A program made the translations under genes and the position numbers. This document shows, piece after piece, positions 11,899 to 37,446 of a stretch of DNA of 62,757 bases (positions are counted from its first letter, which is position 1; every line of letters begins with the position of its first letter). The notes under the pieces were generated by a model. It was not told the DNA's origin. It was given only the letters and a program-made list of their open reading frames with translations, and made no database searches. The stretch is taken from positions 1-62,757 of the forward strand of contig JANRFH010000043.1 of the NCBI GenBank assembly GCA_030725745.1, read 5' to 3'. This DNA comes from Akkermansiaceae bacterium. GTDB taxonomy: Bacteria; Verrucomicrobiota; Verrucomicrobiia; Verrucomicrobiales; Akkermansiaceae.

Positions 11899-14800
11899 TC
11901 ATTCGCCGGACACCGGAATCCAAGGCACGAGATCATGATCATTGATCACCCTCAACCCACCGACGAGATATGAACTTCTGCGGAGTTCTTCCATGGTCAG
12001 TCCATTATCCGATATACGTGTCGTGACCACTCCCCCCCCCACGATCCGTCGTGCTGAGCCATTTCCCCTTTGGGCTGGAGATGATGCTGGTGATGCCCTG
12101 CACGCCACGTGAGTGATCAGCCAAAAGATGGATATATTCACCTGTCGCCCGGCTAAACTCGAACAAGGCTCCGTGTTGGGTAATGAACACGGCCTCCCCT
12201 TCCGGCGGCCACCCCAAGGTTGGGTTCGAAGCGAAAGTGACCTCCCGGTCGCTGACTTTAAGGTATGTCGAACAGAGTTCTTGTTTGAGAGTATCATAGA
12301 GCAATAGACCTTCCTGACATGCTAGGAGGCAATGACCACCATCCGGAGAGGAAATGATATGCACCAATGGAGAGGGAAGGGTGACGTCCGAAGAAATCCA
12401 TTTTCCGTCCCGAAAACAATGATGACTGAGCAAGGAAGCGGAAGACGCACCTCCTGATTTTCTCGAAACGATCGAGCCATCTGGAAGAAATACCCACAAC
12501 TCCATGTTATCCGGCTGGCAGTCATCGAATTCCAGCAGCAATGAATTTTCTAGTCCGGAGTCGGTAAGGATCTGAATGATCACGCTCTTTGCGCCCTCCC
12601 CGGTCAAGGTCGAGCGGGCGAGAAATACATCATCACCTTGGATGAGCTCTACGCGGATGAGCTCGTTGATTTGCTCAATTGGGCTATCCGTGATCAGAGA
12701 TTCCTGATGGTTGGAGGCAGGAGACCAGCGGTTCAGATAAAAGGATTGGTTGAACTGCCCAGATACCGCTTTCACACCGATCCAGTAGAGATCATCACTC
12801 CCCTTAAGATTTAAAATCCTCTCGATCCCCCCCTCTGTCTTGATGATATCCATCACTTGCCCTAACACGCAATCGATGATCGCCAGACCCTCTTTTGTCG
12901 AGATCGCCGCACGCCCCGCACCATCGCCAAAGAAACGGCCATACCTACCCTTCACCTCAAATTCCAGCGCGCCATCGTCTCGGAAAATCTGCACCGCCCG
13001 ATACGAGCATCTCACCAGATTACCATTCGCCAGGATGCGGATTTCTTCCTTTGACCAGCCTAGGGGTTCGTCATCGGTAAACTTATGGCGTATCTCTGCG
13101 GGGTTCCCGTCATCATAAAATATCGTTTCATTCTCGTGATGTGCCCACGAACGTGTGTGGCCTTCATCATCGACAGTGTGCCAACCGATTTCGAACTCCG
13201 GAGCGCTTTGAAACGTCCGCTTGCCATTCTTCGGATGTGTCGATGGATCAAGTTTTAAAAACCGGGACAGGACTTTTCCCCGGTGTGTCAGAACAGAAAC
13301 GCACCAAGCGTCATCGGCCTTTTCAACGGAGGTAAATGCAAACGGTTGCGAGACGTTTCCAGTGAACACCTCGGGTTGATCTGGGCGCGTAAGATCAACC
13401 AGATTCACCGATTGTCCGCCGAGGTTGTGGGTGAAGATCCCGATAAGATTCGGCGCGATCTCAGTCATCTGACAGGCATCGCCGAGGTAGAAATAATTCC
13501 CGGAAAGGGTGGGAAGCCGGAACGTGCCTTTGAGGCCATCGGAGCCTTCAAAGAAAAATGTTTCGCTGGAACGCTCCCAACCCATGGCGATCCCTGATCT
13601 CTCTGCGAAGAAAAGTGAGCTCAGATCCTTTCCGCCCAGCAAGTCCCGGCTCGACAGATCAAAGACATTGATCGCCTCCAATCCAACTCCATCGGCTTCG
13701 CTTTTTTTACGGATGACTTCGAGTTCCTTGCCATCCCGTAGAATCCCATAGATCGTAGAGGACTCGGAGAGGTTGAGATAATATACGTTCGGGTGAAAGA
13801 GATCGATAATCGCTATATCAGGACGATTCTGCTGTGAGACAATCAGAGCAGCGGCAGCGATTTCATACCGCAATGAGAACGCCTGAAAATCCACAGGAAG
13901 ATCCGAACCAACTTTCTCCCAATCCCCCTTTTCCTTCGGATATAAATGGATAACCAACTCCTTCTTGTCTGCGGAATCCGGGCTCTCGGCGATGCTGAAG
14001 AAAAAGAATGCCTTTTCGAATTCTGCGGCAAAGCAATCTGGAGCCCAGTCGGCCAAGATCGGCCCCTCCAACTCAGCGACTTCGCCATCTTTTTGATAAA
14101 TGATGCTCGAGTGGATCGCCCGTGTGTTCGGGTCACGATAAATCCTAGTGGCTAGATTCTGATGCGCTCTGAAAGAACCCAAATCTCCGCTAAGGGGTTG
14201 CTCATAAAGAAGGCCACCATCGCTCCAGCGATAAACCCTGAACTGCCCCACACCAGCCAACGCAAACCAATCGGCATCTACCGGAGCCACCACCTGATTG
14301 ATGGTCTGGGTGAATTCAATCTCCAGAAGCCGCTCCATCTTCGCCGTATCTAACAAAGAGGCTTTTGACCTTCCAGAAATCACCACCGCCCGTTGTCGCT
14401 CGATGGAAATTCCCCAATCCTCCTGCCCTTGCATCTTGAAGAGTTCGTCGGAAATACGATGAGACGAAATGACCTGATCCGGAGCAGACCACTGACCGAT
14501 AATTTCACGGTTCCTTGCAGCGAAGCGCGGCCTATTCAGTATCTCCGGATTTATCTCAGCCGCTTTTACCGACCATGCCAGCGATTTATCTGGATCTTGG
14601 TGAAAACTCACCTCAGCGCGCTCATCATAGAAATTTGATAAAGTCCGTTTGGCATTGTCGCGCTCCTTCATCGCCTCCTCCGCGCTGATCTGTGCCTGGG
14701 TTCGCTCAGCTACAGCGATGGATGTCTGCTTGAGCGCTTCTTTTTTCTGCGACAGTGCGTAAATCGAAAGGGCGGAAAGTGTGGTGATCAGGAGTAGCGC

Positions 14801-23981: not shown

Positions 23982-25196
23982 TCAACCCCGACGGATCTTC
24001 GATCCTGCAAAGAACACCGTGATCCGGTAAACTCGTTTCTGGCGCGTGGTAATCAATCCCGTCTGCAGGTCGAACTTTTCCGGGATCTCCTGTCGGTGAA
24101 TGTCCACTGTAGCCTGGAAGCCACGCTCCGAATGCACATCGATGAGCATCGCCAGCGCTACAGGATCCTCAAACATTGCGTCCTCCGTATTGATCGTCAC
24201 CCGCCCGGTCACCGCGTATCGCTTGATCGTGGGCATCATCTTTACCTGGATAAAATCCACAACCTTTTCCAAAAGCGCAGGCCGCTCATGGATGTAGCCG
24301 TCGAGCCGGTTCACGAGATCCTGCCGCGCTCCCACTACAATCTCATCCGCCAATGGGATGTGCCGAAGCGCATCATAAGTGCGGGGATCCAGCTCCAGCG
24401 AGCTCTGATACTCCAGCTCGCGCACGATATTCTGCTGCACCACCTTGATTGGTGCCTGCGCGTTGATGAAATGGTAATGGAAAATCTGCTTCAGCGAGAC
24501 CAAAGCATCGTAAGTCTTCTCTTTGAACGTCCGATAACGCCCGCGCGCGAGATCCGGATCAAAATCAGTCGCCCGCTCCTCCCACAGCTCGCCAACACCG
24601 GATTGCCTCACCTCGGCATTGTGCACGAGCGTTTCCTGACCGCGCTTCAACTGACGCGCGATACTCTCCACCTCGTCCACGAACAGCACCATGATATGGA
24701 AAACTGGCTGGCGGAAATGCTGCGCATGAGGAGTCTCGGAAAACTCCTTTCTCAAGCGCACCATGCTATCGAAAAGCATTTTGAGACACTCCACCTGCAC
24801 AGTCGTGCGCGGGAAGCCATCCAGCACCGCACTCTCACGGAATTCCGGCTTGAGCATTTCACAGAGCAACAGGCGCAACACCTCCTCATCCCCCACCATG
24901 GAACCCTGAGCTTTGAGCTTCTGCGCCTCAGGCGAGTCAAGCAACTGGCTGATCACAATCGGCTCCGCAGCAATGCCACGCACCTCGCGTATGAAATCCG
25001 TGTTCGTCCCCTTACCCGAGCCCGGAGCACCGCCCAGCAGGATCAGCTCCTTGGGGAAACGCAGGTTCTCACAGCCCACCTCGCTCTCCAATTCTCTCCA
25101 CACACGGTTAAAAATGAGTTGTGCGTCCTTGATTTCAAGGTCGGCTAGCGGGGGTTCGGTCTTGATTTCGGTCACGGGATAGCCATGAAAAACCAA
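23982..25196 (-). CDS. Long adenylate-kinase-like nucleoside monophosphate kinase
   Basis: The 404-aa protein is about twice the length of adenylate kinase. Residues 50-63 hold the P-loop (LILLGGAPGSGKGT), and ESAVLDGFPRTTVQVECL near 120 is the NMP-binding motif of the Adk family. A LID-like insert contains RQLKRGQETLVHN. The last 170 residues (NIVRELEYQSSLELDPRTYD onward, ending TVFFAGSKIRRG) form a separate domain I do not recognise. It should phosphorylate a nucleoside monophosphate with ATP; the true substrate is open. The start is TTG 25196 or GTG 25175, the latter giving MTEIKTEPPL. Confidence 0.75.
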   Translation of the reverse strand: MVFHGYPVTEIKTEPPLADLEIKDAQLIFNRVWRELESEVGCENLRFPKELILLGGAPGSGKGTNTDFIREVRGIAAEPIVISQLLDSPEAQKLKAQGSMVGDEEVLRLLLCEMLKPEFRESAVLDGFPRTTVQVECLKMLFDSMVRLRKEFSETPHAQHFRQPVFHIMVLFVDEVESIARQLKRGQETLVHNAEVRQSGVGELWEERATDFDPDLARGRYRTFKEKTYDALVSLKQIFHYHFINAQAPIKVVQQNIVRELEYQSSLELDPRTYDALRHIPLADEIVVGARQDLVNRLDGYIHERPALLEKVVDFIQVKMMPTIKRYAVTGRVTINTEDAMFEDPVALAMLIDVHSERGFQATVDIHRQEIPEKFDLQTGLITTRQKRVYRITVFFAGSKIRRG

Positions 25197-26020: not shown

Positions 26021-26833
26021 TTAGCGAGGATTTGGTAATAGCCGTTTCCCATCCGCGCTGAGTGAACGCGTGTCCCATTCATGCGCCTTGATGTGAATCG
26101 GGCGCTCCACATTTTCCAAGAAGTGGGTCGGCCAGATGCTGCCGTCAGATGCTGTTTTAAAATCGGAGAAATCGACCGAGACATCAGCTCCTTTTGTCGT
26201 TTCCACGCCATCGATGGTGAACTGAACCCTTCTAAGCAATTTGCTCTCACTACCGATCCAGGCGATGAACGAATCGCTCTCCGACATACCGAAGCCGGGC
26301 GAAACTTTGCCCTGTATTAACAAACACTCCTCACCCGCTAGCTCCTTTTTGCCCACAATTTCCAAATCCCTTGCCTTTGCGTTGAGCCATGACGAACCGA
26401 AGGTAAATAAGGTATAGGCATCCGCCACCATCGCAGCAGCTTCTTCTTTATCCGAATCGCCATCCACCTTGCCGTTATAGCTTACTTCCGTCTGTGAATC
26501 GGAACTGCGAACCAATTTCGTTCCACCGGGGCCCGAGTGAATCTGCTCCACCAAGCCCCTGCGCGTAAAATAGGTTTCGATAGATTCTTTTCGAAAATCT
26601 CGATCCACAATCACTGGCTGAATCTTCGCCGCAGCATTAGTCCATTCACCCGCATACTCGACTTTCACCGTTTTGTAGCGCTTCCATGGATCACCGGATG
26701 CCCTTGCGGATGAAGCGAGGATCGCCGCAGCATCGCCATTTTCAGCTACCAAGCCCTTGGTGGCACCAGGTTTAGGTAGCGTGGAGCAATTGCAGATGAG
26801 AAACGGTAAAATGAGCAACAGAACGACTTTCAT
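26021..26833 (-). CDS. Probable lipoprotein of unknown function
   Basis: The 270-aa product begins MKVVLLLILPFLICNCSTLP at ATG 26833; the Cys after a hydrophobic run suggests a lipoprotein though the lipobox is not canonical. The rest has YKTVKVEYAGEWTNAAAKIQ, a beta-rich core with LVRSSDSQTEVSYNG, and VSVDFSDFKTASDGSIWPTH, a pattern seen in LolA/outer-membrane-lipoprotein-like folds that bind lipids, but I cannot confirm it. It lies 29 bases after the alpha/beta hydrolase and ends the long minus-strand gene run. Confidence 0.65.
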   Translation of the reverse strand: MKVVLLLILPFLICNCSTLPKPGATKGLVAENGDAAAILASSARASGDPWKRYKTVKVEYAGEWTNAAAKIQPVIVDRDFRKESIETYFTRRGLVEQIHSGPGGTKLVRSSDSQTEVSYNGKVDGDSDKEEAAAMVADAYTLFTFGSSWLNAKARDLEIVGKKELAGEECLLIQGKVSPGFGMSESDSFIAWIGSESKLLRRVQFTIDGVETTKGADVSVDFSDFKTASDGSIWPTHFLENVERPIHIKAHEWDTRSLSADGKRLLPNPR

Positions 26834-26862
26834 GATGCAACATGCAACGCTTCGCGCCCCTG

Positions 26863-27693
26863 TCAAAGATGGCGATCGAGGAAATTGATCGCCGCCTCGA
26901 TGGCCTCATCTTGGCCGAAGAAGGCAGAGATGTGGCCTTTACCTTGGAGCCAAAAGACCTCATGGGGCACGCCGTGCTTGCCCAGTGCGAGCGCCAGCTC
27001 GCTGGTGTGGACTGGCTGCACGAGCTTGTCTTTCGTACCGTGGTAGAGAAATGCCGGAGGACTATTTTTTGTCACATGCATGATCGGCGATGCCTCATCG
27101 ATGCGTTTTTCGTAATTCTCCTCACCTCCGAGGTGTTTCCTGATTAGCCCTCCGTTGGCATAAACGATGAGATCCGATGGAGCCGAACCTGCCACGATAG
27201 CTTTCACATCCGCATCATCTCTGCCCTCTGTCAGTGCAGTGAGTTCTGCGAGATATCCACCCGCCGAAAAACCCCAGACCGCGATGCGATCCGGATCCAC
27301 GCTCTCTTGCTCGGCGTTGTTGCGTAGCCAGCGTATCGATTCCTGCACATCACGCAGCTGGCTGGGATAATCCCAATCGCGGACATTCCGGTAGGTGATG
27401 TTCAGCACGTAATAACCACGATCTGATAGCTTGCGCCCGATCCCGTCCATCAGCCAGCGCCCGTCATCACCTATCTTCACTCCGCCGTGGATCAATACCA
27501 CTGCCGGGTGTTTGCCGTCACCTTCCGGGCGGAAAACATTTCCAGGGATGGCCTCCGCCCAATCAGCCGGTGTGAAAACCACGTCTTTTTTCGTAACTGA
27601 ACCCACCCCGCCGCCGCCGATGCAAGCGTTCAGCAGCAGAACGGAGCAGCAAACTGCAAACAAGGAGCATGCCGAAAAGTGAAAGCCCGCCAT
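26863..27693 (-). CDS. Lipoprotein alpha/beta hydrolase (BD-FAE/carboxylesterase-like)
   Basis: The 276-aa protein has a signal peptide with a good lipobox (LLLNAC). The hydrolase domain shows HPAVVLIHGGVKIGDDG, YVLNITYRNVRDWDYPSQLR, the nucleophile elbow WGFSAGGYL, GTKDKLVQP with the Asp, and GKGHISAFF with the His. The HGG and GxSxGG motifs are those of the hormone-sensitive-lipase/BD-FAE group, which deacylates small esters or polysaccharides. The start at ATG 27693 shares one base with the stop of the upstream paralog (TGATG), so it is coupled to that operon. Outer-membrane or periplasmic location is likely. Confidence 0.85.
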   Translation of the reverse strand: MAGFHFSACSLFAVCCSVLLLNACIGGGGVGSVTKKDVVFTPADWAEAIPGNVFRPEGDGKHPAVVLIHGGVKIGDDGRWLMDGIGRKLSDRGYYVLNITYRNVRDWDYPSQLRDVQESIRWLRNNAEQESVDPDRIAVWGFSAGGYLAELTALTEGRDDADVKAIVAGSAPSDLIVYANGGLIRKHLGGEENYEKRIDEASPIMHVTKNSPPAFLYHGTKDKLVQPVHTSELALALGKHGVPHEVFWLQGKGHISAFFGQDEAIEAAINFLDRHL

Positions 27694-29072
27694 CACCACT
27701 CCTTGTCCAACCGCATTTTCTCCATGTTGCGGTCGTAGATATTGAACTCGATGCGCTTGAACGCACCTTTAAGAAACTCCGCGTCACCGAAGTTCTGGCT
27801 GAAGCCTAGGATCTTCCCGTCCTCCACGCCATCCAGCCGGAAGACCAGACGCGTTCCGTCGGATAGAGTCGCGCGGACATCGCCACGGTTCCTCTTCGGC
27901 GTCTCCATATCAGCCTCTTTTAGAATGATGTTCTTGAGTCGCGAAACCGGAAACTTCACTTCGGAGAGAGGTGTCTTCAGGGTGATTTCCTCGCCCTCGA
28001 TACCAGTGACCTCGCCCTCGATCGTATCACCGTTCCGCAAGACCATCCGCCCTTCGGGAACGACGTCCTTCTTTTCCTCCACTTCCTCTTCGTCACCGAA
28101 ATCGATCCCGCCCCCAAAGCGCATGGCTCCGCGCCTCTGGTTCGGCACTTCATCATAGTTCCCGTCCCAACTCGTCACCTCAATGTTGGAAATCTTCAGC
28201 GGCGAACGATCCTGTGCGATGAAATGGAAGCCTTTGCCGATGCTTTCCTTATCAACTTCGTTGTCCTCCCAGATATCCACCATCTCACCATCCACGTAGA
28301 GCAGGATCTTGCCGGTCTTCGTGCTCGCCTTGATCTCGATGTGCGCCTTCTCATTCTCCCTGAGTTGACCCGCATTTGTGGTATGACCAAGCCACGCATT
28401 CGAGCCGCCTTTCTTCACATGCACGGAGTTTCCTTGGAAAACCATCTCATAGCCCCCCTTGGGATTGTTCCCTTCGACATCAGTAGAAAGGAACACGATC
28501 CTCGGGCGGAAAGCTCCCCGCCATGTGGCATCGAAGGCGATGCTAAATTCATCGGGAAAGCCGATTTCACGTGCCGCGCCGCCAGTCGAAAGTGATTGCA
28601 GGACGCCGGCCTTAAACGTCCAAGCGCTTTCATCCGTCAACGTCCACTCGTCTAGGCTGTTGGGGCCGCGATAGAAATAATCCGATGCCTGAGTGATCTT
28701 GACCGACTTCACATTGACCCTGCGGAAAACCATTTCCCCGGCATACCAAGTATCCAAGCGTATTTCTTCGTTCGTCAGACCTATTAGCGCACCTTGAATG
28801 GAATCCCCGTTAGTCATTTCCAGTGTCGCCTCGTGGGCTGCACCCGCCTTTTCTGGCTTCTCTACGCCAGATGGCATATTGAGATCCATGACGTAGCGGA
28901 TGTCGAATTCCGCAGGCTCCTTGAGGATCTGTGACTGCCATGTCAGCTTCTCCACTGACAGGCCTAAGACTTCTCCGGTGAGCTGATCACCATTCGAGAA
29001 ACGCACCACGGAGGCGTCTTCCTGAGCGTGACAGGAAACGGCTAGCATGAGGATGGCGATAGGTATTTTCAT
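27693..29072 (-). CDS. Exported 'NGD-module'/lectin-like protein, paralog 3
   Basis: The 459-aa protein has a signal peptide (MKIPIAILMLAVSCHAQED), two small beta modules (FSNGDQLTGEVLGL; MTNGDSIQGALIGL), a central domain of about 200 residues starting FYRGPNSLDEWTL and running to ILLYVDGEMVDIWED, which looks like a concanavalin-A/DUF1080-type jelly roll, then a Glu-rich linker and two more modules (LRNGDTIEGEVTGI; LSDGTRLVFRLDGV). Each module resembles a small SH3-like barrel. Sugar or wall binding is plausible from the jelly roll. It shares architecture with the next two genes upstream. The stop and start of neighbours overlap by 1 nt. Confidence 0.75.
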   Translation of the reverse strand: MKIPIAILMLAVSCHAQEDASVVRFSNGDQLTGEVLGLSVEKLTWQSQILKEPAEFDIRYVMDLNMPSGVEKPEKAGAAHEATLEMTNGDSIQGALIGLTNEEIRLDTWYAGEMVFRRVNVKSVKITQASDYFYRGPNSLDEWTLTDESAWTFKAGVLQSLSTGGAAREIGFPDEFSIAFDATWRGAFRPRIVFLSTDVEGNNPKGGYEMVFQGNSVHVKKGGSNAWLGHTTNAGQLRENEKAHIEIKASTKTGKILLYVDGEMVDIWEDNEVDKESIGKGFHFIAQDRSPLKISNIEVTSWDGNYDEVPNQRRGAMRFGGGIDFGDEEEVEEKKDVVPEGRMVLRNGDTIEGEVTGIEGEEITLKTPLSEVKFPVSRLKNIILKEADMETPKRNRGDVRATLSDGTRLVFRLDGVEDGKILGFSQNFGDAEFLKGAFKRIEFNIYDRNMEKMRLDKEW

Positions 29073-30415
29073 CACTCTTCTACAGGGTTGGCTTTGGGTA
29101 TATCGCGTTTTTCAAGAGCGGTGATCCCGGCTCTATTCACTTCCACTTCTCCGAGCAAAGGATGCTTAGCCTTGACCGTCTCCGACTCGAACACACAGGA
29201 CGCAAGTTTCAATTCTCCGTTTCCGCGTAGCCGTAGAATGAGCCCTTCTTTATCACTGGAGGATTCTTCACTACCCTCAAAAAATATCGTGGAAACCTCG
29301 CTCTCAGGGAGGAGGAGGGGTTCTTTTTGGAAATCGCTTTTAAACTCATAAACTGTCGTATCACCTTCCGGCCGGATCGAAAGCAACTTACCGCCCCACC
29401 TCTCGCCAGAGCGCCCGATCATCGCATCAGAAGTTCCGTCACCCCTCTCCTCACTGCGGTGCCTGTCGCTGCGTTCGTCCCATTCCACCAGCTGGATTTG
29501 GGAAATAGTCTGGGAGCTATTTTGCGATGCACGGTTCGTCAGGGTAAGCCCCGAGCCATTCGGAATATCCGACAAGGGATCAGTGAAACGCCCTTCCAAG
29601 GTGCCATCGAGATAAAGATGCAACAAACCGCGCCCGAGGTCGCCGCGTATTTCCACTTCTAGTGTGTTTCCAGAAAAACGATCCGCCGCGCGACCCAGCA
29701 TCATGATGGGCTTGCTCTTGCGCAGTTCCTTTGAGTCACGGAAAATGCTCAGGCTGGAGCCGTTAAAATCAAAATAATACCTATCATCGATCCCGCCTTT
29801 TCCCGGCGCGGTATCGGCGAACGCAAACCTGAAATTTGGCTGCTGCGTCCATTCCATACGGAAGCGCAGGATGAACTTCTCGGGCATTTCTACATCACGC
29901 GTGAGCGTTCCCGAACCTTCTGCCGTGAGTCCGCTGGAATCCGCCGTCCATACCTGAGTGCCGCCCTTTTGCTCCCATCCGGTGAGGCTATCCCCACCAG
30001 AATAAATCTCTTTTTCAGCAAATATTCCGAGCTGAACTGAAGAGATCAACTCCCTAGGAATCCATACCTCTCCAAGATCCGGTGAAGAGGCCTTCATGCC
30101 TGCGTCGTCGAGACCGTTGATTGTGACGGGCAGCACATCCCCATTGATGAGCTCCACCCGCTGACCGGGGATCTCGCTTTCGCTTGCCGTATTTTCCTCA
30201 AAGCCGACGTGCTTGACCATTTCACCCAGCAGCAGCAGCGGCTTTTTCGATAGCGAAGAGACTAGGGTGATTGTTCCTGAGTCGTCCATCGCCATCAACT
30301 CACCGGTGAGGGAACAGCCATCGCTCAGCGAAATATCCGCCGCCTGCACTGGGAGCGTAAATAGTGCGACTAAAGCGGCCGCCCGCTTCAGGTTAAAATT
30401 CCAAGTCCCAGTCAT
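29072..30415 (-). CDS. Exported 'NGD-module'/lectin-like protein, paralog 2
   Basis: The 447-aa protein has the same order of parts as its two neighbours: signal peptide (LKRAAALVALFTLPVQA), two modules (LSDGCSLTGELMAM; LINGDVLPVTINGL), a central lectin-like domain (IYSGGDSLTGWEQKGG to LLHLYLDGTLEGRF), and two weaker C-terminal modules (RWGGKLLSIRPEGD; LRGNGELKLASCVF). It overlaps the preceding gene by 23 nt. Sequence identity with the neighbours looks low, so the triplication is old. Function unknown; envelope location is inferred from the signal peptide. Confidence 0.72.
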   Translation of the reverse strand: MTGTWNFNLKRAAALVALFTLPVQAADISLSDGCSLTGELMAMDDSGTITLVSSLSKKPLLLLGEMVKHVGFEENTASESEIPGQRVELINGDVLPVTINGLDDAGMKASSPDLGEVWIPRELISSVQLGIFAEKEIYSGGDSLTGWEQKGGTQVWTADSSGLTAEGSGTLTRDVEMPEKFILRFRMEWTQQPNFRFAFADTAPGKGGIDDRYYFDFNGSSLSIFRDSKELRKSKPIMMLGRAADRFSGNTLEVEIRGDLGRGLLHLYLDGTLEGRFTDPLSDIPNGSGLTLTNRASQNSSQTISQIQLVEWDERSDRHRSEERGDGTSDAMIGRSGERWGGKLLSIRPEGDTTVYEFKSDFQKEPLLLPESEVSTIFFEGSEESSSDKEGLILRLRGNGELKLASCVFESETVKAKHPLLGEVEVNRAGITALEKRDIPKANPVEE

Positions 30416-31865
30416 CGAGAAAGCTTTCGGTTTCCTCGATTTCCAGCATTACTGCGGAATCGAGCTTGATATCAATCTCACCGGCGCAGCCGCTGAGTAT
30501 CTTGAGATTTTTGTCATCACCGCTCAGCGGCTTGCCGGTGATCCGGCCGAGCGGGTGAAGCCTAACTTTCATGCTCTCGGTCGTTTCCTCGTCTTTCTTC
30601 GCCAATCCAGATTGCGCGAAACGCACTTCCGCCACATCCGCGATGGGGAACTCAAAATTTCCGTAGCGGCTCTCCAGTTGCAACAAGCCATCATGCAGGC
30701 CTTTGATTTTTCCGGCGAAACGATCCGTCCCGTTCGCGAGTAGCACGATATCCGCATCATCAACCTGAAGGCTGCGCGCTGAGTCCGGCATACCATTCCA
30801 CTCCGCCACGATCACTTCGGAAAGGCGCGCAGGAGAATCATCTGCCTGAACTGCGAAGCCGAGGCCTCCGCCAAGCCCCGCATAGGATTCGCCGCCCTCA
30901 CCCAGTTCGCTCCATTGTGCGATGAACTCCCCGTTGATAAAAAACATGATCTCGCCGCTGTCACGGTTGCACCTCATTTCCACTGAGGCAGTGCCTGTAT
31001 CGCCTAGTCCCACGCCGCTGCTAACCATCTGCACTGGCTCCATGCGCGGGTTTCCATCTTTGTCGAAGGACGTTCGGAACAGACGTAAATAATTCGAGTA
31101 AAGGTGGAGCACATAGCTATTTCCAAAAAGTCCCGGCAGGCCTGCGGCACGCCCCCCTTTCACCTCATTGCCATCTTCGTCCAGCTTCGGCTCAGGCTGT
31201 TTAAAATCTGCATGGAAGGCGATGGCCATCTGCAGGCGATTTTTCCATGCGATATCAAATCGAATGATAGAGCGCGCAGGCATTTCCTCTTTCAAAACAA
31301 GCGCGGTGCCAGTGCCTTTATCTTTCCAATACCATGCGGAACCGGAAAAATTCCATCTTGAGATCCCGTCCTCTTCTTCAGCGTTTTCATCCGGAGCTGG
31401 AATCCCCTCCGGATGCTCGGTATCAATCATCTTCCACTCTTTTTCGTCGAATGGCCCTTGGTAAATGATCCGGCCACCCAGTGGCGTGGGTGCCAGCAGA
31501 CCTACCTTGTTGCGGGGAATTTCAATCGTCCCGCCAAACTCCGTATCAAGCAGTAGGCGGGTATCGTCCATATCGCGGATGACACCCGGGATGCGGTCTC
31601 CATTTATCGTGCCGATGTGAGAAAGACCTCCCAGCGATTTTTCAGGCCTGCCGCCACGCAGCACGATGCGGCGGAGATCGGAGGTTTTGAATTTCACCAC
31701 TTCACCTACATCATCGCGCTTCCACAGCACAGATTGACCCTCCATGCCGGAGTAGCTGCCGTGAAGTTTGTCGCCATTGGAGAAGCTCATCATATCATCC
31801 CTCAGCTCCTCCGCACCTGCGAGATGCGCGAAGAGAAGTAGAAAGATGACGGGGTTCATTCTCAT
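30393..31865 (-). CDS. Exported 'NGD-module'/lectin-like protein, paralog 1
   Basis: The 490-aa protein has a signal peptide (MNPVIFLLLFAHLAGAEE), modules FSNGDKLHGSYSGM and TINGDRIPGVIRDM, a central domain from IIYQGPFDEKEWKMID to IMFFINGEFIAQW, and C-terminal modules ANGTDRFAGKIKGL and LHPLGRITGKPLSG. The strand-rich module pattern 'NGD-x-L-x-G ... L...G ... IP...V' repeats in all three paralogs. Its ATG overlaps the toroid-protein stop by 4 nt. It probably works outside the cytoplasm with that protein. Confidence 0.74.
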   Translation of the reverse strand: MRMNPVIFLLLFAHLAGAEELRDDMMSFSNGDKLHGSYSGMEGQSVLWKRDDVGEVVKFKTSDLRRIVLRGGRPEKSLGGLSHIGTINGDRIPGVIRDMDDTRLLLDTEFGGTIEIPRNKVGLLAPTPLGGRIIYQGPFDEKEWKMIDTEHPEGIPAPDENAEEEDGISRWNFSGSAWYWKDKGTGTALVLKEEMPARSIIRFDIAWKNRLQMAIAFHADFKQPEPKLDEDGNEVKGGRAAGLPGLFGNSYVLHLYSNYLRLFRTSFDKDGNPRMEPVQMVSSGVGLGDTGTASVEMRCNRDSGEIMFFINGEFIAQWSELGEGGESYAGLGGGLGFAVQADDSPARLSEVIVAEWNGMPDSARSLQVDDADIVLLANGTDRFAGKIKGLHDGLLQLESRYGNFEFPIADVAEVRFAQSGLAKKDEETTESMKVRLHPLGRITGKPLSGDDKNLKILSGCAGEIDIKLDSAVMLEIEETESFLDDWDLEF

Positions 31866-32851
31866 TTTTCGTAGATTGGCAGATATCGGTAGTTCAATGC
31901 CAGCGACAAAAGCGCACCGGCGGTGCTAAATGCCTGACCTTGGTTCCCGGGAAAGGAGCCGTCTGGCGATTGGATCGTACCAAGATAGCGCATATTCCGC
32001 GCATTCCAATCCTCCCACAGCTCCTCATCCGCATGGAAGAGCGCCTGAGACATGTAGTATTCGAAGTAGTAGGGGTAATACCTGTCGCGGAAATCGAGGT
32101 TCTTCTTCAAGTAGGCGACGCTGGCCTGGTAGCCCTTCGAGTCAGTCTCCTTCGCAAGAGCAAGGCACAGCACACCGATGGCCGTAAGGGTGGGCTTGCC
32201 ACCTGCCGATGAAGTATAACCGTAGGAACCATCGCTTCCGCGGCAGCTAGAGAGGTAGGAAAGGCCTTTTTTGATCGCCTGATCCGGCACCTTGATACCC
32301 GCATTTCGTGCCGCGAAAAGGCTAACCATCTGGCAGCCCGTCACCGTCGTATCCGCATCCCGGCTTTCAGGGCCGTAACGCCATGCTCCGAAGCGATTTT
32401 TGCTCTGCGAGCTGAGTATGAGATCGATGGATTTCTGCAGCGTCTTCGCAAGTTCCGGGTGTTCCAGCACTCCATAGCATTCCGCCAGCGCCTTGGTGGC
32501 GAATGCATGGTTATACATGCTGTTGCCAATGTAGCCGTTGCCGGGATTCTGCTTTGAAATCATGTAATCGATGCCCTTGCTGATGAGTCCGGCGAATTCG
32601 CCGTTGTTCGGATCTTCGCCATGAGCGAGGAAGGCGGCGATGCAGAGACCCACGACACCCGGCTCGCTGCCAGAGTTATCGCTCCATGCCCCTTCCGCGT
32701 TCTGCTTTTCTGCAAGGTAGCGTAGGCCGCGCTCATAAATGAGATCCACCTGCGCAGGGATACTATCGTCCCTCCGATTCAGCAAATCCTGCGCACGCAC
32801 CGAGGCCAGCGATCCAGCACAGAGGGAGAGAAAAAAACGCCTATCCATCAT
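31862..32851 (-). CDS. Exported alpha/alpha-toroid (prenyltransferase/squalene-oxidase repeat) protein
   Basis: The 329-aa protein starts MMDRRFFLSLCAGSLASVRA, an RR-containing export signal that may use Tat. The rest has QW-like repeats (YLAEKQNAEGAW; QSKNRFGAWRYG; CRGSDGSYGY; IQSPDGSFPG) typical of the squalene-cyclase/prenyltransferase toroid fold. The place of the cyclase acid motif DXDDTA reads DADTTVTG, so cyclase chemistry is unlikely, and the length is half that of SHC. Such toroids in Planctomycetes and Verrucomicrobiota often lie in operons with large membrane proteins; the role may be binding. It overlaps both neighbours by 4 nt. Confidence 0.83.
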   Translation of the reverse strand: MMDRRFFLSLCAGSLASVRAQDLLNRRDDSIPAQVDLIYERGLRYLAEKQNAEGAWSDNSGSEPGVVGLCIAAFLAHGEDPNNGEFAGLISKGIDYMISKQNPGNGYIGNSMYNHAFATKALAECYGVLEHPELAKTLQKSIDLILSSQSKNRFGAWRYGPESRDADTTVTGCQMVSLFAARNAGIKVPDQAIKKGLSYLSSCRGSDGSYGYTSSAGGKPTLTAIGVLCLALAKETDSKGYQASVAYLKKNLDFRDRYYPYYFEYYMSQALFHADEELWEDWNARNMRYLGTIQSPDGSFPGNQGQAFSTAGALLSLALNYRYLPIYEK

Positions 32852-33468
32852 TTCGACTGCTCCTCCAGACCACGGTTGTATGCATCGAGAGCCTTCTGAA
32901 ATTCGTTGGGCAGGCTTTTCCCGGCATTGCCTGCGGCTTTAGGGACTGTGCGCTCCTCAACTTTCCCGCCAGACGCGCCGTCCTCACCGGAATTTTCCGC
33001 ATTGGAATCCCCGGTCATCCCCTGCCCTGCCTTGTCGCCAGGTTTCTTTCCGGGCTGGTCACCTTCGCCCTCCTTCTTGCCCATCATGCGCTCCATCATG
33101 TCCATCATCGCACTGCCTTCTTCTCCGGACTCGCCCTGTTGTTGCTTAGCCTTTGCAGCCGCATGGATCAACTCGATGATCTCCGTCTGCGCCGCAATCG
33201 TTTCACCGCCGGTATCTGTATCTGCTAGGTAATCGGTGGTCTCGTCCATGATGCCCTCAACCTGATCGAGCAACGCGATGACCTCAGGAATCGTCTGCTC
33301 TATCACTAACTGCTGCACATCCGCAGAAAGCTCGTCCTGCTCATCCGCAAGCTTTTCTGAGCCCTCCGCATGCTGCTCCAGCACCGAGCGCACATCCTCC
33401 GCTTCATCGGCGGCGAAGGACATTCCTCCGAGTAGAGTGATTAAGAAAATGGTGGAATGGGCTTTCAT
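32848..33468 (-). CDS. Exported acidic coiled/low-complexity protein
   Basis: A 206-aa protein with a signal peptide (MKAHSTIFLITLLGGMSFAA). The first half is helical and acidic (EDVRSVLEQHAEGSEKLADE; DELSADVQQLVIEQTIPEVI). The middle has AAKAKQQQGESGEEGSAMMD and MMERMMGKKEGEGDQ, then a Gly/Ser/Asn-rich linker and a C-terminal helix PNEFQKALDAYNRGLEEQSK. The helices may pair with the coiled coil of the large protein encoded just upstream. Overlaps of 4 nt on both sides show coupling. Confidence 0.72.
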   Translation of the reverse strand: MKAHSTIFLITLLGGMSFAADEAEDVRSVLEQHAEGSEKLADEQDELSADVQQLVIEQTIPEVIALLDQVEGIMDETTDYLADTDTGGETIAAQTEIIELIHAAAKAKQQQGESGEEGSAMMDMMERMMGKKEGEGDQPGKKPGDKAGQGMTGDSNAENSGEDGASGGKVEERTVPKAAGNAGKSLPNEFQKALDAYNRGLEEQSK

Positions 33469-36092
33469 CGTTCGGCCGAGGCTGAGGTGGATGCATCGCG
33501 CTTGAGCTGTTCTAGGGCGCGTGTGCGGGCGCGGAGATCCTGTTCCTGCTGGATGAGTTTCATCACACGCAGCATGAATTCGAAATCCTCATCCTCCGGG
33601 CTAGGGCTCCCATCCCCACCGCCTTCTCCACCGCCGCCTCCGTTGAGCTCATCGCCCAGCGTCGTCGCCCATTCTGAAAGTTTAGCCGCCCACACCTTCG
33701 CGCTCTCGGTGGCGGTGTAAGCATGGTTTTTACTGATCTTTGTCCGGATGTCCTCAAGCCCGAGATCGATGCCTGATTCCTTCATCGCATCAAGAATACC
33801 CTTGAAGGCGGCGGCGCCCGTCCTCGCATGGTAGTGGCCGAGATCCTCCTGAATCCACCTTACATCGGATGAAGTCATCATCTGCTGGCGAGCGGTATCT
33901 AAGAGCACCCGTTGAAACTTCGGATCCACATCGTCATAATGAACCCCGAGGATACCGGAAAATGCCGAGATGAGGGAGCTGGCGATACCATTCTCCTCAT
34001 CCGCTGCCTTCTTCAGGCGGCTGACGAAAGTGCTGGCTTCGAAGCGCTTGTTTGCGTCGTTTGCTTGCTCCAGCGCCTTCTTGATTTTCTCCATCACCTC
34101 CTCCTGCTTCTCTACCGCCTGCGCGATGTCTTCCTTCGCCTTCTCCGGTGTGTTGGATTTTTCCTGAGCCTCGCCGAGCTCGTCGCGCACCTCCGGGATG
34201 TCTGTATCGGAAAGCTCCTGCATCGACTTCATCGCGCCAGCCATCTTCTTGAGCGTCTCCTTGTCGATGTCGCCATTACGCGTCGCCCCCTTCATCAGCT
34301 CCTCCATTTTTCGGGTGAGCTCCTCCATGCGTTGGGCGCTCTCGCTTTCCGCGAGTTCCTGAGCGTCAAGGCGCTTGCGGTTCTCATCTTCCTGTAGCTC
34401 CTCGCCATCGAGACGCTCCAGGCGTTTGTTCTCGTCGAGATTATTGAGTTCGCGCCGTGCCAGATCCTCCAGCTCGCTGATCGTCCGGTCGAAGTTGCTT
34501 TTCAGAAGCTGCGCGTGTTCCTCGCGAGTCAGCACATAAACCACCACCGGCTCGGAATAGACGCGTCCACGCCCCGGAAAATAATCCTCGGAAAATGCTC
34601 TAAGAATCAACCTCTGCGGCCCCAATCCGAAAGCTGCCGGCGAAAACACCGCTGGCTCCATCAAGCGCCGTTCTTCTGGACCGCCCTTGCGAAGGATCAG
34701 CTCGCCCTTGGTCTCGGCTGGCATGCCCGGAATCACTCCGAGGCTTTCCCATTCGATGCCCACTTGTTTTAACCCGAAATCATCTTCGCAGAGGATATCA
34801 AAATCCATCGACTCCTCGGGCAGGATCGCCTTCTGCCGCTCCAGCCCCTGCGTGTAGGCCACTGGCGGCGAGTCTTTCACAGCATCCACCCGCAGCTTGT
34901 ATCCCTCACCACCGGTGAGGCCGAATTCATCGACCCATGCGAAAGGCATCTCAAAGGGCACCGCGCCGACTTTGATCTCACCGGTGCTCACATTTGCTCC
35001 GGAGATCGCGAGTTCTCCCGAGGTTTCTTGAAATTTCTCGCCCTGCGCCATTTCACCGGAGATCGCTGTCGGCCCATAGCTCCCGGATCGCAGCGGGCGC
35101 GTCATATCCATGGTAAAGGAGATCACGCTACCCTCCACAGCGCTCAATTCACCGATAGCAAGATCCACCTCGCGGTCGGGGATTTTCATGTAAGCCGGGG
35201 ATTTCACCAACGCCCTCGTGCCCTGCACCGATGGACGCTGCATCGGCTCCACTTTCACCAAATGCCGTAAATCGCCGACACGGAATACGATAGTCCCCGA
35301 ATCCTGCTGCCCAGGAAAGCGGAACGTGTAGGATTCCTTCTTCAGTTTCCCGTAAACCTCCGGTTGCAATGCATACTGCCCGGATGCGACAGGTGGTTTC
35401 TGCTCGCTTTCGGAGGAGAGTTTCAGCGATATCTGGAAGGACTCACCATACGGCACTGCGAGGTAGGTCACAGGCTTATCGAGCTGGGTGAAGGTGTAGC
35501 GTTCCACCTCGGAAAACGGCATTAGCCAGCGCTGTAAGGCATTCACTCCCGCCTTCGGAGTCAACATGAAAGCGGCGGTCACCGCCAGCATCAGCATCAC
35601 CGCAGCAAAAGCCCATTTCCTATGGCGTGGGGATGGCAGAGCATCTACCAAGTTTCTTTTCCCCGTCTCAGCAGCGACCACCTCCATCGCCGCCGCTCGT
35701 AGCCGTGGGGAAAGCGTATCAATATTTTCATGCTGCCCCTGAAGCTCGATGACACCCAAAAGTCTGTCCCCCAGACCGGGAAAACGTTTCGAAATCAAAC
35801 GCGCCAGCTGCCCATCTTGCCGATGCCCCCACACCCAGCGATGCATAAGGTAGGGAGCGAAGCCCGCGAAAAGCGAAATGCCAGACAGAAGGATCACAAG
35901 ACGCGCCCAGCCCGGCGTTTGCCAAACCCTGTCCAGCCCATAGATTAGTAGGAAAGAAACTAGCAGCCCGATCAATCCGGCAGCCACCGCTTCAAGCACC
36001 TTGCGACGCCACAACGTCTTCCGGAATTCCTCCAACTGCTTGCGCAAGCTCTCGGGAATCTCGGTTCGTGCATCAGGTGAAGGTTCGAACAT
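33465..36092 (-). CDS. Large membrane-anchored coiled-coil protein (DUF4175-like)
   Basis: The 875-aa protein begins with a cytoplasmic helix (EIPESLRKQLEEFRKTLWRR), two membrane segments (about 35-80), an amphipathic region, and a third membrane segment near 165 (WAFAAVMLMLAVTAAFML). A beta-rich extracytoplasmic part follows to about 530, with Ig-like strands. Residues of about 540-700 form a long charged coiled coil (ISELEDLARRELNNLDENKR; KMEELMKGATRNGDIDKETL), then helices and a Gly/Glu-rich stretch. This resembles the DUF4175-type proteins often found downstream of MoxR/BatA genes; no MoxR is beside it here. ATG 36092 is preferred over GTG 36107. It is the first gene of an eight-gene run. 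Confidence 0.75.
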   Translation of the reverse strand: MFEPSPDARTEIPESLRKQLEEFRKTLWRRKVLEAVAAGLIGLLVSFLLIYGLDRVWQTPGWARLVILLSGISLFAGFAPYLMHRWVWGHRQDGQLARLISKRFPGLGDRLLGVIELQGQHENIDTLSPRLRAAAMEVVAAETGKRNLVDALPSPRHRKWAFAAVMLMLAVTAAFMLTPKAGVNALQRWLMPFSEVERYTFTQLDKPVTYLAVPYGESFQISLKLSSESEQKPPVASGQYALQPEVYGKLKKESYTFRFPGQQDSGTIVFRVGDLRHLVKVEPMQRPSVQGTRALVKSPAYMKIPDREVDLAIGELSAVEGSVISFTMDMTRPLRSGSYGPTAISGEMAQGEKFQETSGELAISGANVSTGEIKVGAVPFEMPFAWVDEFGLTGGEGYKLRVDAVKDSPPVAYTQGLERQKAILPEESMDFDILCEDDFGLKQVGIEWESLGVIPGMPAETKGELILRKGGPEERRLMEPAVFSPAAFGLGPQRLILRAFSEDYFPGRGRVYSEPVVVYVLTREEHAQLLKSNFDRTISELEDLARRELNNLDENKRLERLDGEELQEDENRKRLDAQELAESESAQRMEELTRKMEELMKGATRNGDIDKETLKKMAGAMKSMQELSDTDIPEVRDELGEAQEKSNTPEKAKEDIAQAVEKQEEVMEKIKKALEQANDANKRFEASTFVSRLKKAADEENGIASSLISAFSGILGVHYDDVDPKFQRVLLDTARQQMMTSSDVRWIQEDLGHYHARTGAAAFKGILDAMKESGIDLGLEDIRTKISKNHAYTATESAKVWAAKLSEWATTLGDELNGGGGGEGGGDGSPSPEDEDFEFMLRVMKLIQQEQDLRARTRALEQLKRDASTSASAER

Positions 36093-36241: not shown

Positions 36242-37231
36242 TCACTCGTGCTTAAACGGCTCCGCACGCCTGCCATCGATGCAATCCGTAAGCCACTGCA
36301 TCAGCTTCTCCGCTTCCTCAGATTCGGAACGCATCGAGCCCAGTGAAGTCCAGTCAATGTGCGGGCGGGATTGCACGGCGGCGATCCGGTCGATGTTGAG
36401 CTTAGACATGATCGCCTCGGTCTCTTTAGGGTGCGCGTTGAGGATGTTCGCGGGGCGCGGGAGATCGTCGATCACCTCCGGTGTGAGGCCGAAGGATGTC
36501 ACGCCGACTCCGAAAGCGGCGCTCAGTTTCCTCATGCCATCGGCCAGCGCCTCGTCTTCGACAGGCCCCGCATAAACGAGTTCACCGCCCTGCGCCCACA
36601 TCGAGACCGAGAGGGTTTGGAAAAAATCTTCACGATAGGTTTTGAGCGAAGGCGAAAGCCTCAATCGCGCGGAATGGAGGCGGAATGGTGCTAGGCCTAG
36701 CCTTTGTTTCAGCGCGAGCATCGATTCATCCAAAGACATTTCCTCATCCGGCGAGCCGCCTGTTTCCCAATCCACCAGCACCAACTCAGGGTATTTCCAG
36801 AGATTCCCAGGAGAAGAACCCGCAGCAAATGGCTCACGGAAGGCGAATGGGAAGCGACCGTTGATTTCATAGTAACGCGTCACGACCGCACGGAACTTAC
36901 GAATGCGTAACATCGTATTGTCCACCGTGGAGTCATCCCCACCAGCATCATCCAGACGCCCTTGCGTCCATGCTAACAGCTCTTGCGCACCCGAAAGTGC
37001 CGGTAACGGCTCACTACGTCTGTAGTAGCCTTGCCCCTTCTCCACCTTCGCAATCGCCGAAGCAGGATCGCACGACATGATGGAGAAATGGTAACGCAAC
37101 GAAGCATCTGAGTAGTTGCCCTCGAGCTTCCGACGTGAAAGACGGATCAGCTCGGTTCCCTTAATCGCCTCCGATGGATTGTTAGGGAGCAATTCGGGAA
37201 GGATGTCGTTTAGCTGTTTGCGGAGACTCAT
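36242..37231 (-). CDS. COG2958/HrgA-like protein with a winged helix and a decayed nuclease-like domain
   Basis: The 329-aa protein begins with a HARE-like winged helix (LRKQLNDILPELLPNNPSEA; LSRRKLEGNYSDASLRYHFS). The C-terminal domain follows the COG2958 plan, a PD-(D/E)XK-like fold: LWKYPELVLVDWE, a strand FRLHSARLRL, then YREDFFQTLSVSMWAQGGEL and MRKLSAAFGVGVTSFGL. As I recall the family, the strand should read FELK and is the E-x-K active-site strand; here the acidic residue and Lys are missing. It may therefore bind DNA without cutting. ATG 37231 starts the winged helix. Standing alone; no methyltransferase is nearby. Confidence 0.55.
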   Translation of the reverse strand: MSLRKQLNDILPELLPNNPSEAIKGTELIRLSRRKLEGNYSDASLRYHFSIMSCDPASAIAKVEKGQGYYRRSEPLPALSGAQELLAWTQGRLDDAGGDDSTVDNTMLRIRKFRAVVTRYYEINGRFPFAFREPFAAGSSPGNLWKYPELVLVDWETGGSPDEEMSLDESMLALKQRLGLAPFRLHSARLRLSPSLKTYREDFFQTLSVSMWAQGGELVYAGPVEDEALADGMRKLSAAFGVGVTSFGLTPEVIDDLPRPANILNAHPKETEAIMSKLNIDRIAAVQSRPHIDWTSLGSMRSESEEAEKLMQWLTDCIDGRRAEPFKHE

Positions 37232-37446
37232 GGGGGAAAGATTCGGAAAGTTCCGTAATCCAACCCGCCCACCCATCTCCCATCAAGCGCATTCTTCATT
37301 TCCATGGAGACTGTGCATCCGATCTCATCCCAAACCGTCAAAAATCTCTGTAATAAGCGCACTGAAACTTACTATTGCGTAAATTCGAAATCTTGACTTA
37401 GTCTCTTCCTCCCGACTTTTGATTAGTCGGCTTTCTCAACACGCCT

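Follow-up and report, generated by a model that had tools for sequence, protein, structure and literature searches.

The window analysed here is a stretch of 62,757 nucleotides from an Akkermansiaceae bacterium (NCBI GenBank assembly GCA_030725745.1, contig JANRFH010000043.1, forward strand), and our subject is an operon of six minus-strand genes within it, g1-g6 (27693-36092). We propose that a Bat/Cmd-type MoxR-VWA envelope machine is probably divided in this bacterium, with g1-g6 as its membrane and extracytoplasmic part and the energising part standing elsewhere. Two observations carry this proposal: 1) in several families of the phylum Verrucomicrobiota a full operon of the form MoxR-DUF58-BatA-GATase-like-g1(g2)-toroid is present, usually with lectin-type genes; 2) in the lineage of the window the parts of this operon are dispersed (contigs C52, C6 and C43) and are kept or lost jointly. 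The biochemical roles of g1-g6 themselves we infer. A previous sequence-only reading of the window had described an operon of eight genes; all eight open reading frames (ORFs) are indeed open and lie in the order that it gave (lengths in amino acids, aa):

33465-36092, minus strand: g1, 875-aa inner-membrane protein with three N-terminal hydrophobic segments, Ig-like domains at ~199-523 and a long helical C-terminal part
32848-33468, minus strand: g2, 206-aa exported protein matching the C-terminal ~160 aa of longer g1 proteins of other families
31862-32851, minus strand: g3, 329-aa alpha/alpha-toroid with D-A-D-T in place of the cyclase DxDD
30393-31865, minus strand: g4, 490 aa, first paralog of the form NGD-NGD-lectin-NGD-NGD
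29072-30415, minus strand: g5, 447 aa, second paralog, with a 23-nucleotide overlap with g4
27693-29072, minus strand: g6, 459 aa, third paralog, with a lectin-type core at ~128-305 amid four small beta modules
26863-27693, minus strand: g7, BD-FAE-type esterase, probable lipoprotein, outside the conserved operon
26021-26833, minus strand: g8, 270 aa, no family assigned, hydrophobic start, outside the conserved operon

An operon joined in other families and dispersed in the lineage of the window

Searches for the toroid and g4 covered 39 genomes (numbered with G): the window's own (G000), 24 assigned to its genus and 14 from its order. Ten of the relatives from the order lie outside the window's family and have a g3-type toroid, and three of these ten (G026, G027 and G037) show DUF58 genes 11-13 kb upstream of the toroid and the full layout MoxR-DUF58-BatA-GATase-like-[g1g2]-x-toroid-fusion protein; in G028 g1 and MoxR adjoin each other in divergent orientation. 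At the scale of the phylum, a g1 profile compared with 288 genomes at E 1e-20 matches 50 of them, two weakly, and 20 stretches were taken from 18 matching genomes, all outside the window's family. Genes for MoxR, DUF58, BatA, the GATase-like protein, g1 and the toroid occur together in 13 of these 20 stretches. Lectin-type genes accompany them in 11 of the 13, as one to three separate genes in ten and as a fused form in one, and none was seen in the full-operon stretches of G067 and G230. The stretches of G251 and G222 are cut, yet consistent with the full operon. Given these full operons in distant families, the rear half of the operon that is found in the window looks old.

The sequence-only reading had taken the lack of MoxR and BatA genes beside g1-g6 as the sign of a distinct branch. 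Such genes are present elsewhere in the same genome: contig C52 encodes, at ~94.8-99.2 kb, MoxR (AAA_3, PF07726, 3.3e-62; lid, PF17863, 8.1e-14), an adjoining DUF58 protein (PF01882, 4.2e-47) and BatA (PF07584, 2.4e-19), and contig C6 carries the GATase-like gene (87486-89165), whose product remains below the cut-off of PF07090 (17.6 bits, cut-off 27). Together with C43, the location of g1-g6, these are separate places with no single operon among them, and what had appeared to be a distinct branch is a split operon, whose genes stand in one operon with g1 and the toroid in other families. The GATase-like gene is on a different contig from BatA also in G005, G022, G008, G015 and G017; the four genes for MoxR, DUF58, BatA and the GATase-like protein are still together in G001 and G018, among others; and in the one-contig genome G004 DUF58 lies at ~3.48, BatA at ~2.18, the GATase-like gene at ~2.58 and g1-g6 at ~4.04 Mb.

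The two halves are nevertheless inherited jointly. Using cut-offs for a strong match that were chosen after viewing the lists (toroid E <1e-70, BatA <1e-40, GATase-like <1e-60), the toroid is found in 34 of the 39 genomes and is absent in G003, G030, G031, G035 and G038, perhaps through three independent losses. BatA is present in 34/34 genomes with the toroid and in 0/5 without it, and the GATase-like protein in 33/34 and 0/5, respectively. A sister genus (g13, 22 genomes, each at least 97% complete) was scored for g1 (E 1e-20), the toroid and the lectin-type protein (both E 0.001), BatA and DUF58. An identical set of 13 of its genomes has g1, the toroid and the lectin-type protein, which occur in none of the other nine. 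These 13 also match BatA (E no worse than 3.4e-102), and among the other nine the sole BatA match is a weak one in G236 (5.1e-10). Twelve of the 13 clearly have a C52-like DUF58 protein (48-59% identity) and G139 gives an ambiguous match (41%, below that of a paralog in G014); the best identity in the other nine is 33%. In G156 g1, toroid, lectin-type protein, BatA, GATase-like protein and DUF58 are all present. In the finished genome G077 DUF58 lies at 2.94 Mb, BatA with the GATase-like gene at 0.19 Mb and g1-g3 at 2.52 Mb; as the parts stand at separate places, mere linkage is no explanation of their shared presence and absence.

Comparison with known MoxR operons and a proposed mechanism

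Operons of the Bat/Cmd type with MoxR are widespread, and in the portions of the literature consulted their client is not named. The Rhizobium leguminosarum record NZ_CP022567 contains MoxR-DUF58-DUF4159-hypothetical (GATase1_like) in the order of the full operon. Between it and the window's genome MoxR is 47%, DUF58 27% and the GATase-like protein 26% identical, the BatA domain PF07584 being common to both; the C6 GATase-like protein aligns with its Rhizobium counterpart over 400 alignment columns (E 6e-15), and the Rhizobium protein barely passes the cut-off of PF07090. The Rhizobium operon differs in its third protein, which has a DUF4159 domain (with BatA at the N-terminus); the window's genome has the four genes away from g1-g6. 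From its layout, we take this plasmid copy probably to be RL3499-RL3502 (cmdA-D). Mutation of RL3499-RL3502 (CmdA-D) in R. leguminosarum is cited as causing defects in envelope integrity and shape (PMC5700661, PMC3893208), MoxR proteins are described as probable chaperones for the maturation of complexes (PMC3893208), and in Riemerella moxR and bat genes are reported to influence survival of heat and oxidative stress (PMC11834572). The Bacteroides aerotolerance (Bat) operon shares with the front half a core of MoxR, DUF58 and BatA, and its VWA domains lie at the membrane (PMC5700661); the consulted part of that paper mentions no toroid or lectin-type genes, and the comparison covers this core. 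A cluster on plasmid pPL62-3 of Planctomyces sp. SH-PL62 (MoxR, DUF58, BatA, VWA, hypothetical) gives matches to MoxR, DUF58, BatA and the GATase-like protein in order, and the next protein, a hypothetical one of 744 aa, matches the g1 profile (E 2.2e-10, probability 96.8); it is unlike the full operon in that the 17.7 kb taken contain no g3 or g6 match. Among the titles and abstract openings listed in literature searches, none joined MoxR/BatA with toroid or lectin-type genes in Verrucomicrobiota or Planctomycetota.

In the mechanism that we envisage, the cytoplasmic MoxR AAA+ ATPase, aided by the VWA-type adaptors DUF58 and BatA, would spend ATP on building or remodelling a complex across the inner membrane. 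The g1 protein, with its three transmembrane segments, Ig-like domains and long helices, would together with g2 pass the action of MoxR to the periplasm, where an outer scaffold would be made up of g3, the toroid, and the exported lectin-type trio g4-g6, probably in contact with wall or outer-surface glycans. Envelope integrity under stress would be the outcome. This proposal ties genes without an assigned function to the known, poorly understood Bat/Cmd machinery: across the phylum the named outer partners (g1, g2, the toroid and the lectin-type paralogs) accompany the motor and disappear when it does, and with specific outer partners named the question of the Bat/Cmd client becomes testable.

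Several points weigh against joining g1-g6 to MoxR in this way: 1) g1 stands alone in 4 of the 20 stretches (G274, G207 and second copies in G067 and G230), G224 has BatA through the lectin-type genes with no MoxR/DUF58 match in the 4 kb upstream, and no MoxR/DUF58 match is found upstream of BatA in G004, G077, G156 and G271, so that even the front half is not a single block everywhere. 2) G014 has no strong GATase-like match and its BatA match is partial; moreover, as the losses represent few independent events and the cut-offs were set post hoc, the counts of joint inheritance overstate independence. 3) BatA and its Rhizobium counterpart share PF07584 alone, their BLAST comparison being non-significant (E 0.011), and there is no g1, g3 or g6 match within the 25-kb Rhizobium stretch. 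4) Deleting all bat genes of Leptospira biflexa is reported to leave growth, shape and oxidative phenotype unchanged (PMC3557215).

Alternatively, g1-g6 could be an independent envelope system that is a neighbour to MoxR-BatA and is co-inherited with it through a shared lifestyle, each doing separate work after the split. That the halves are apart in the window's genome and in many relatives agrees with this, as does the separation of g1-g2 from g3-g6 in six genomes, which implies that physical coupling is unnecessary; on the other hand, independent systems would not be expected to share presence and absence inside one genus (13/13 versus 0/9), nor to form one operon in distant families, and we consider this alternative rather unlikely.

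The six conserved genes and their products

Conservation of the locus was assessed in 80 loci (numbered with L), the best 80 of 291 relatives from a scan of named GTDB genomes, with Akkermansiaceae, Akkermansia, Luteolibacter, Haloferula, Roseibacillus, Prosthecobacter and broader Verrucomicrobia names in their record titles; this set overlaps with the G genomes, some loci being identical contigs. The six genes are complete and in order in 54 of the 80 (including L095, with split ORFs), and 13 of the remaining 26 are merely cut by contig ends. In L117, L151, L152, L155, L157 and L163 g1-g2 are elsewhere, with g1 still in the genome in 6/6 and g2 adjoining it in 5/5 testable cases. No g4 was seen in L113, L121, L122, L143 and L100, L097 has no g5/g6 match despite 4.5 kb following, and L120 has matches for g1, g3 and g6 only. 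The overlaps described for the window are borne out, with 4 nucleotides for each of g1/g2, g2/g3 and g3/g4, 23 for g4/g5, 1 for g5/g6 (4 if g6 begins with the GTG at 29075) and 1 for g6/g7 (4 or 7 with alternative starts), as is the gap of 29 nucleotides between g7 and g8 with the ATG at 26833. The overlaps are conserved in relatives: counting start codons near the expected, though not proven, starts, a 4-nucleotide overlap is possible at g1/g2 in 44/68, at g2/g3 in 31/73, at g3/g4 in 52/74 and at g5/g6 in 53/68, and at g4/g5 the 23-nucleotide overlap is possible in 35/65 and any overlap in 58/65. The other two genes were sought by tblastn up to 4 kb past g6 in the 56 loci with at least 1.5 kb of sequence there, and neither g7 nor g8 has a match (0/56); a wider set of 243 loci gave a single weak g7 match (L093), not adjoining g6. 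Hence, g7 and g8 are local additions, recent neighbours of the operon, and the conserved system is six genes (27693-36092), not eight. The earlier suggestion of one complex or pathway is thus not supported for g7 and g8 (0/56 loci) and is supported for g1-g6, which are joined by their kept order and overlaps, by full-length paralogs, by the equivalence of g2 to the C-terminal part of long g1 proteins and by the retention of the g1-g2 pair when moved.

Among the eight proteins only g3 and g7 pass Pfam cut-offs, g7 with BD-FAE and several hydrolase families, and no protein reaches an NCBIfam cut-off. Of the two lipoproteins earlier suspected, g7 has a hydrophobic start ending in LNAC, and g8 is without a canonical lipobox. 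The placement of all products at or outside the inner membrane agrees with the hydrophobic N-termini of g1-g6, hydrophobicity being its basis; N-terminal hydrophobic stretches recur in orthologues of g2 (54/57), g3 (70/80), g4 (53/64), g5 (56/66) and g6 (51/61).

A model of g1 (60 sequences, predicted local distance difference test score, pLDDT, 85) displays N-terminal helices, Ig-like domains at ~199-523 and long helices, with structural matches to generic tandem Ig-type domains (Z 7.9-9.6), and three hydrophobic segments are present in 58/60 orthologues. The label "DUF4175-like" had to be abandoned, as it is below cut-off everywhere tested: g1 does not match Pfam DUF4175 (PF13779), there are 0 matches in its own genome, and a distant homologue (L223:5237-8701) scores 20.7 bits against a cut-off of 27.3. 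An alpha2-macroglobulin-like reading of the Ig-like g1 with the toroid g3 was also discarded, the g1 matches being generic and the TED match of g3 below cut-off. Single ORFs matching both g1 and g2 are encoded in five genomes from other families of the order (L037, L039, L040, L041 and L043), in the cut L038 and likewise in two sister-genus genomes (L215 and L217), and a profile-profile comparison places g2 on the C-terminal part of the long-form g1 (E 6.8e-17). Such fusions are good evidence for a joint action of g1 and g2. A search for g1 in plasmids returned no match. Between g1/g2 and the toroid an extra protein of 677-853 aa, helical by eye and with no family assigned, is encoded in L037 (4753-6855), L043 (8787-11348) and L042 (7928-9961); unlike these, the window has nothing in the slot between g2 and the toroid.

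The toroid g3 passes Pfam SQHop_cyclase_C (PF13243, 33.1 bits against a cut-off of 26.1) and Prenyltrans, and it matches the squalene-hopene cyclase family in a PDB sequence search as well. DxDD is the motif of class II terpene cyclases. As had been noticed, this motif is broken in the window, where it reads D-A-D-T (D165, D167). The D-x-D is retained in 98/98 aligned rows of the g3 toroid type, window included, and the fourth position (168) is D in 0/98 and T in 94/98, a pattern with which a residual enzymatic role of g3 would be compatible. A stronger version would make the toroid a periplasmic enzyme acting on polyprenyl/hopanoid-like lipids, with the lectin-type proteins presenting substrate or product; the Pfam match and the invariant D-x-D speak for it, but the last Asp is never present and g3, about half the length of a 631-aa cyclase, is probably exported, making it an improbable account of the operon. 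In a tree of 20 rows, where the tool flags long branches in the type-A and C22 toroids, 15/15 g3-type toroids form a clade (99/99) that excludes four type-A paralogs and the C22 copy. A Tat signal in g3 was rejected, the Arg-Arg start being found in the window and L071 alone among 19 aligned. Several of the genomes have a second, paralogous MoxR-DUF58-GATase-like-toroid operon (L060, L061, L062 and L063), with a toroid ~29-33% identical to g3, and in G260 the toroid gene is tandemly duplicated (L218, 8441-10475; identity to g3 of 52% and 53%).

The description of g4-g6 as three paralogs with a lectin-like core proved right: profile comparisons join them over their full length (E 7.7e-39, 1.9e-49 and 3.5e-43), and a model of g6 (62 sequences, pLDDT 86) shows two small beta modules, a lectin-type beta-sandwich at ~128-305 and two further modules. 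Among the 50 matches listed, this core resembles L-type lectin and CBM66 folds (Z 14.8-17.3, root-mean-square deviation 2.5-3.6, ~150-175 residues). It shares the beta-sandwich fold with ConA-like/L-type lectins and CBM66, and differs in its low identity (7-18%) and in the four NGD beta modules that flank it. Botulinum-complex chains in the g6 Foldseek list are read as reflecting the shared ConA-like fold, not kinship. The NGD modules of the g6 model have the strand order of small barrels. Comparison of the module profile with the PDB gives Sm/Hfq proteins in 11 of 20 rows and MJ1435, which we take to be Hfq-like, in one more (E 0.12-0.76, each non-significant alone), the best row being bS1m (E 0.02) rather than Sm/Hfq; Pfam LSM matches 3/62 g6 proteins (best E 0.066), and other families match as many or more. 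With these rows weak and bS1m the best, a Sm-like nature of the modules is no more than a lead. Elsewhere in the order, seven genomes from other families (L037, L038, L039, L040, L041, L042 and L043) fill the slot after the toroid with a single protein (1024-1300 aa) that has modules of this kind, an N-terminal part aligning with g6 (E 7.8e-31) and a C-terminal thioredoxin-like domain, confirmed by Pfam AhpC-TSA/Redoxin in L037 and L043 and by eye in the others; that of L041 is missing one Cys of the motif. We rejected this fusion as the ancestral form: more distant families carry separate lectin-type paralogs, and hence the fusion is more likely derived.

An extended model and the neighbouring genes

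Going further, and only tentatively, Verrucomicrobiota and probably also Planctomycetota could have a trans-envelope machine of eight to ten parts, whose MoxR-VWA motor would drive an outer scaffold built from tandem Sm-like/lectin proteins and a toroid derived from a cyclase; the machine would lie in two to four chromosomal pieces in the window's family with its parts co-inherited, and the fusion of scaffold and thioredoxin elsewhere would link envelope assembly with thiol redox control. That the genes would instead form a MoxR-vWA "ternary" conflict (immune-type) system is very improbable: the C52 MoxR matches Pfam bpMoxR (E 5.1e-11), a family named after such systems, but it matches AAA_3 far better (3.3e-62), the bpMoxR match is not specific as the Rhizobium MoxR gives it too, PADLOC finds among ten proteins only two weak matches (the coiled-coil part of g1 and MoxR), and g1-g8 contain no effector-like domain by Pfam or NCBIfam.

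Upstream of g1 the window encodes a 344-aa protein without a Pfam match (36242-37276), divergent to a SNF2-type helicase (PF00176; 37447-41031), and both are upstream of g1 in some relatives, e.g. L086, L088, L090 and L098. On contig C22 of the window's genome a run of N lies within a small lipoprotein-like ORF (L064, ~13142-13450). Downstream, a 404-aa adenylate-kinase-like protein is encoded at 23982-25196 (ADK, 7.2e-9); in L027 and L090 its orthologue is the gene immediately after g6, suggesting that the tail of the operon may be rearranged in the lineage of the window.

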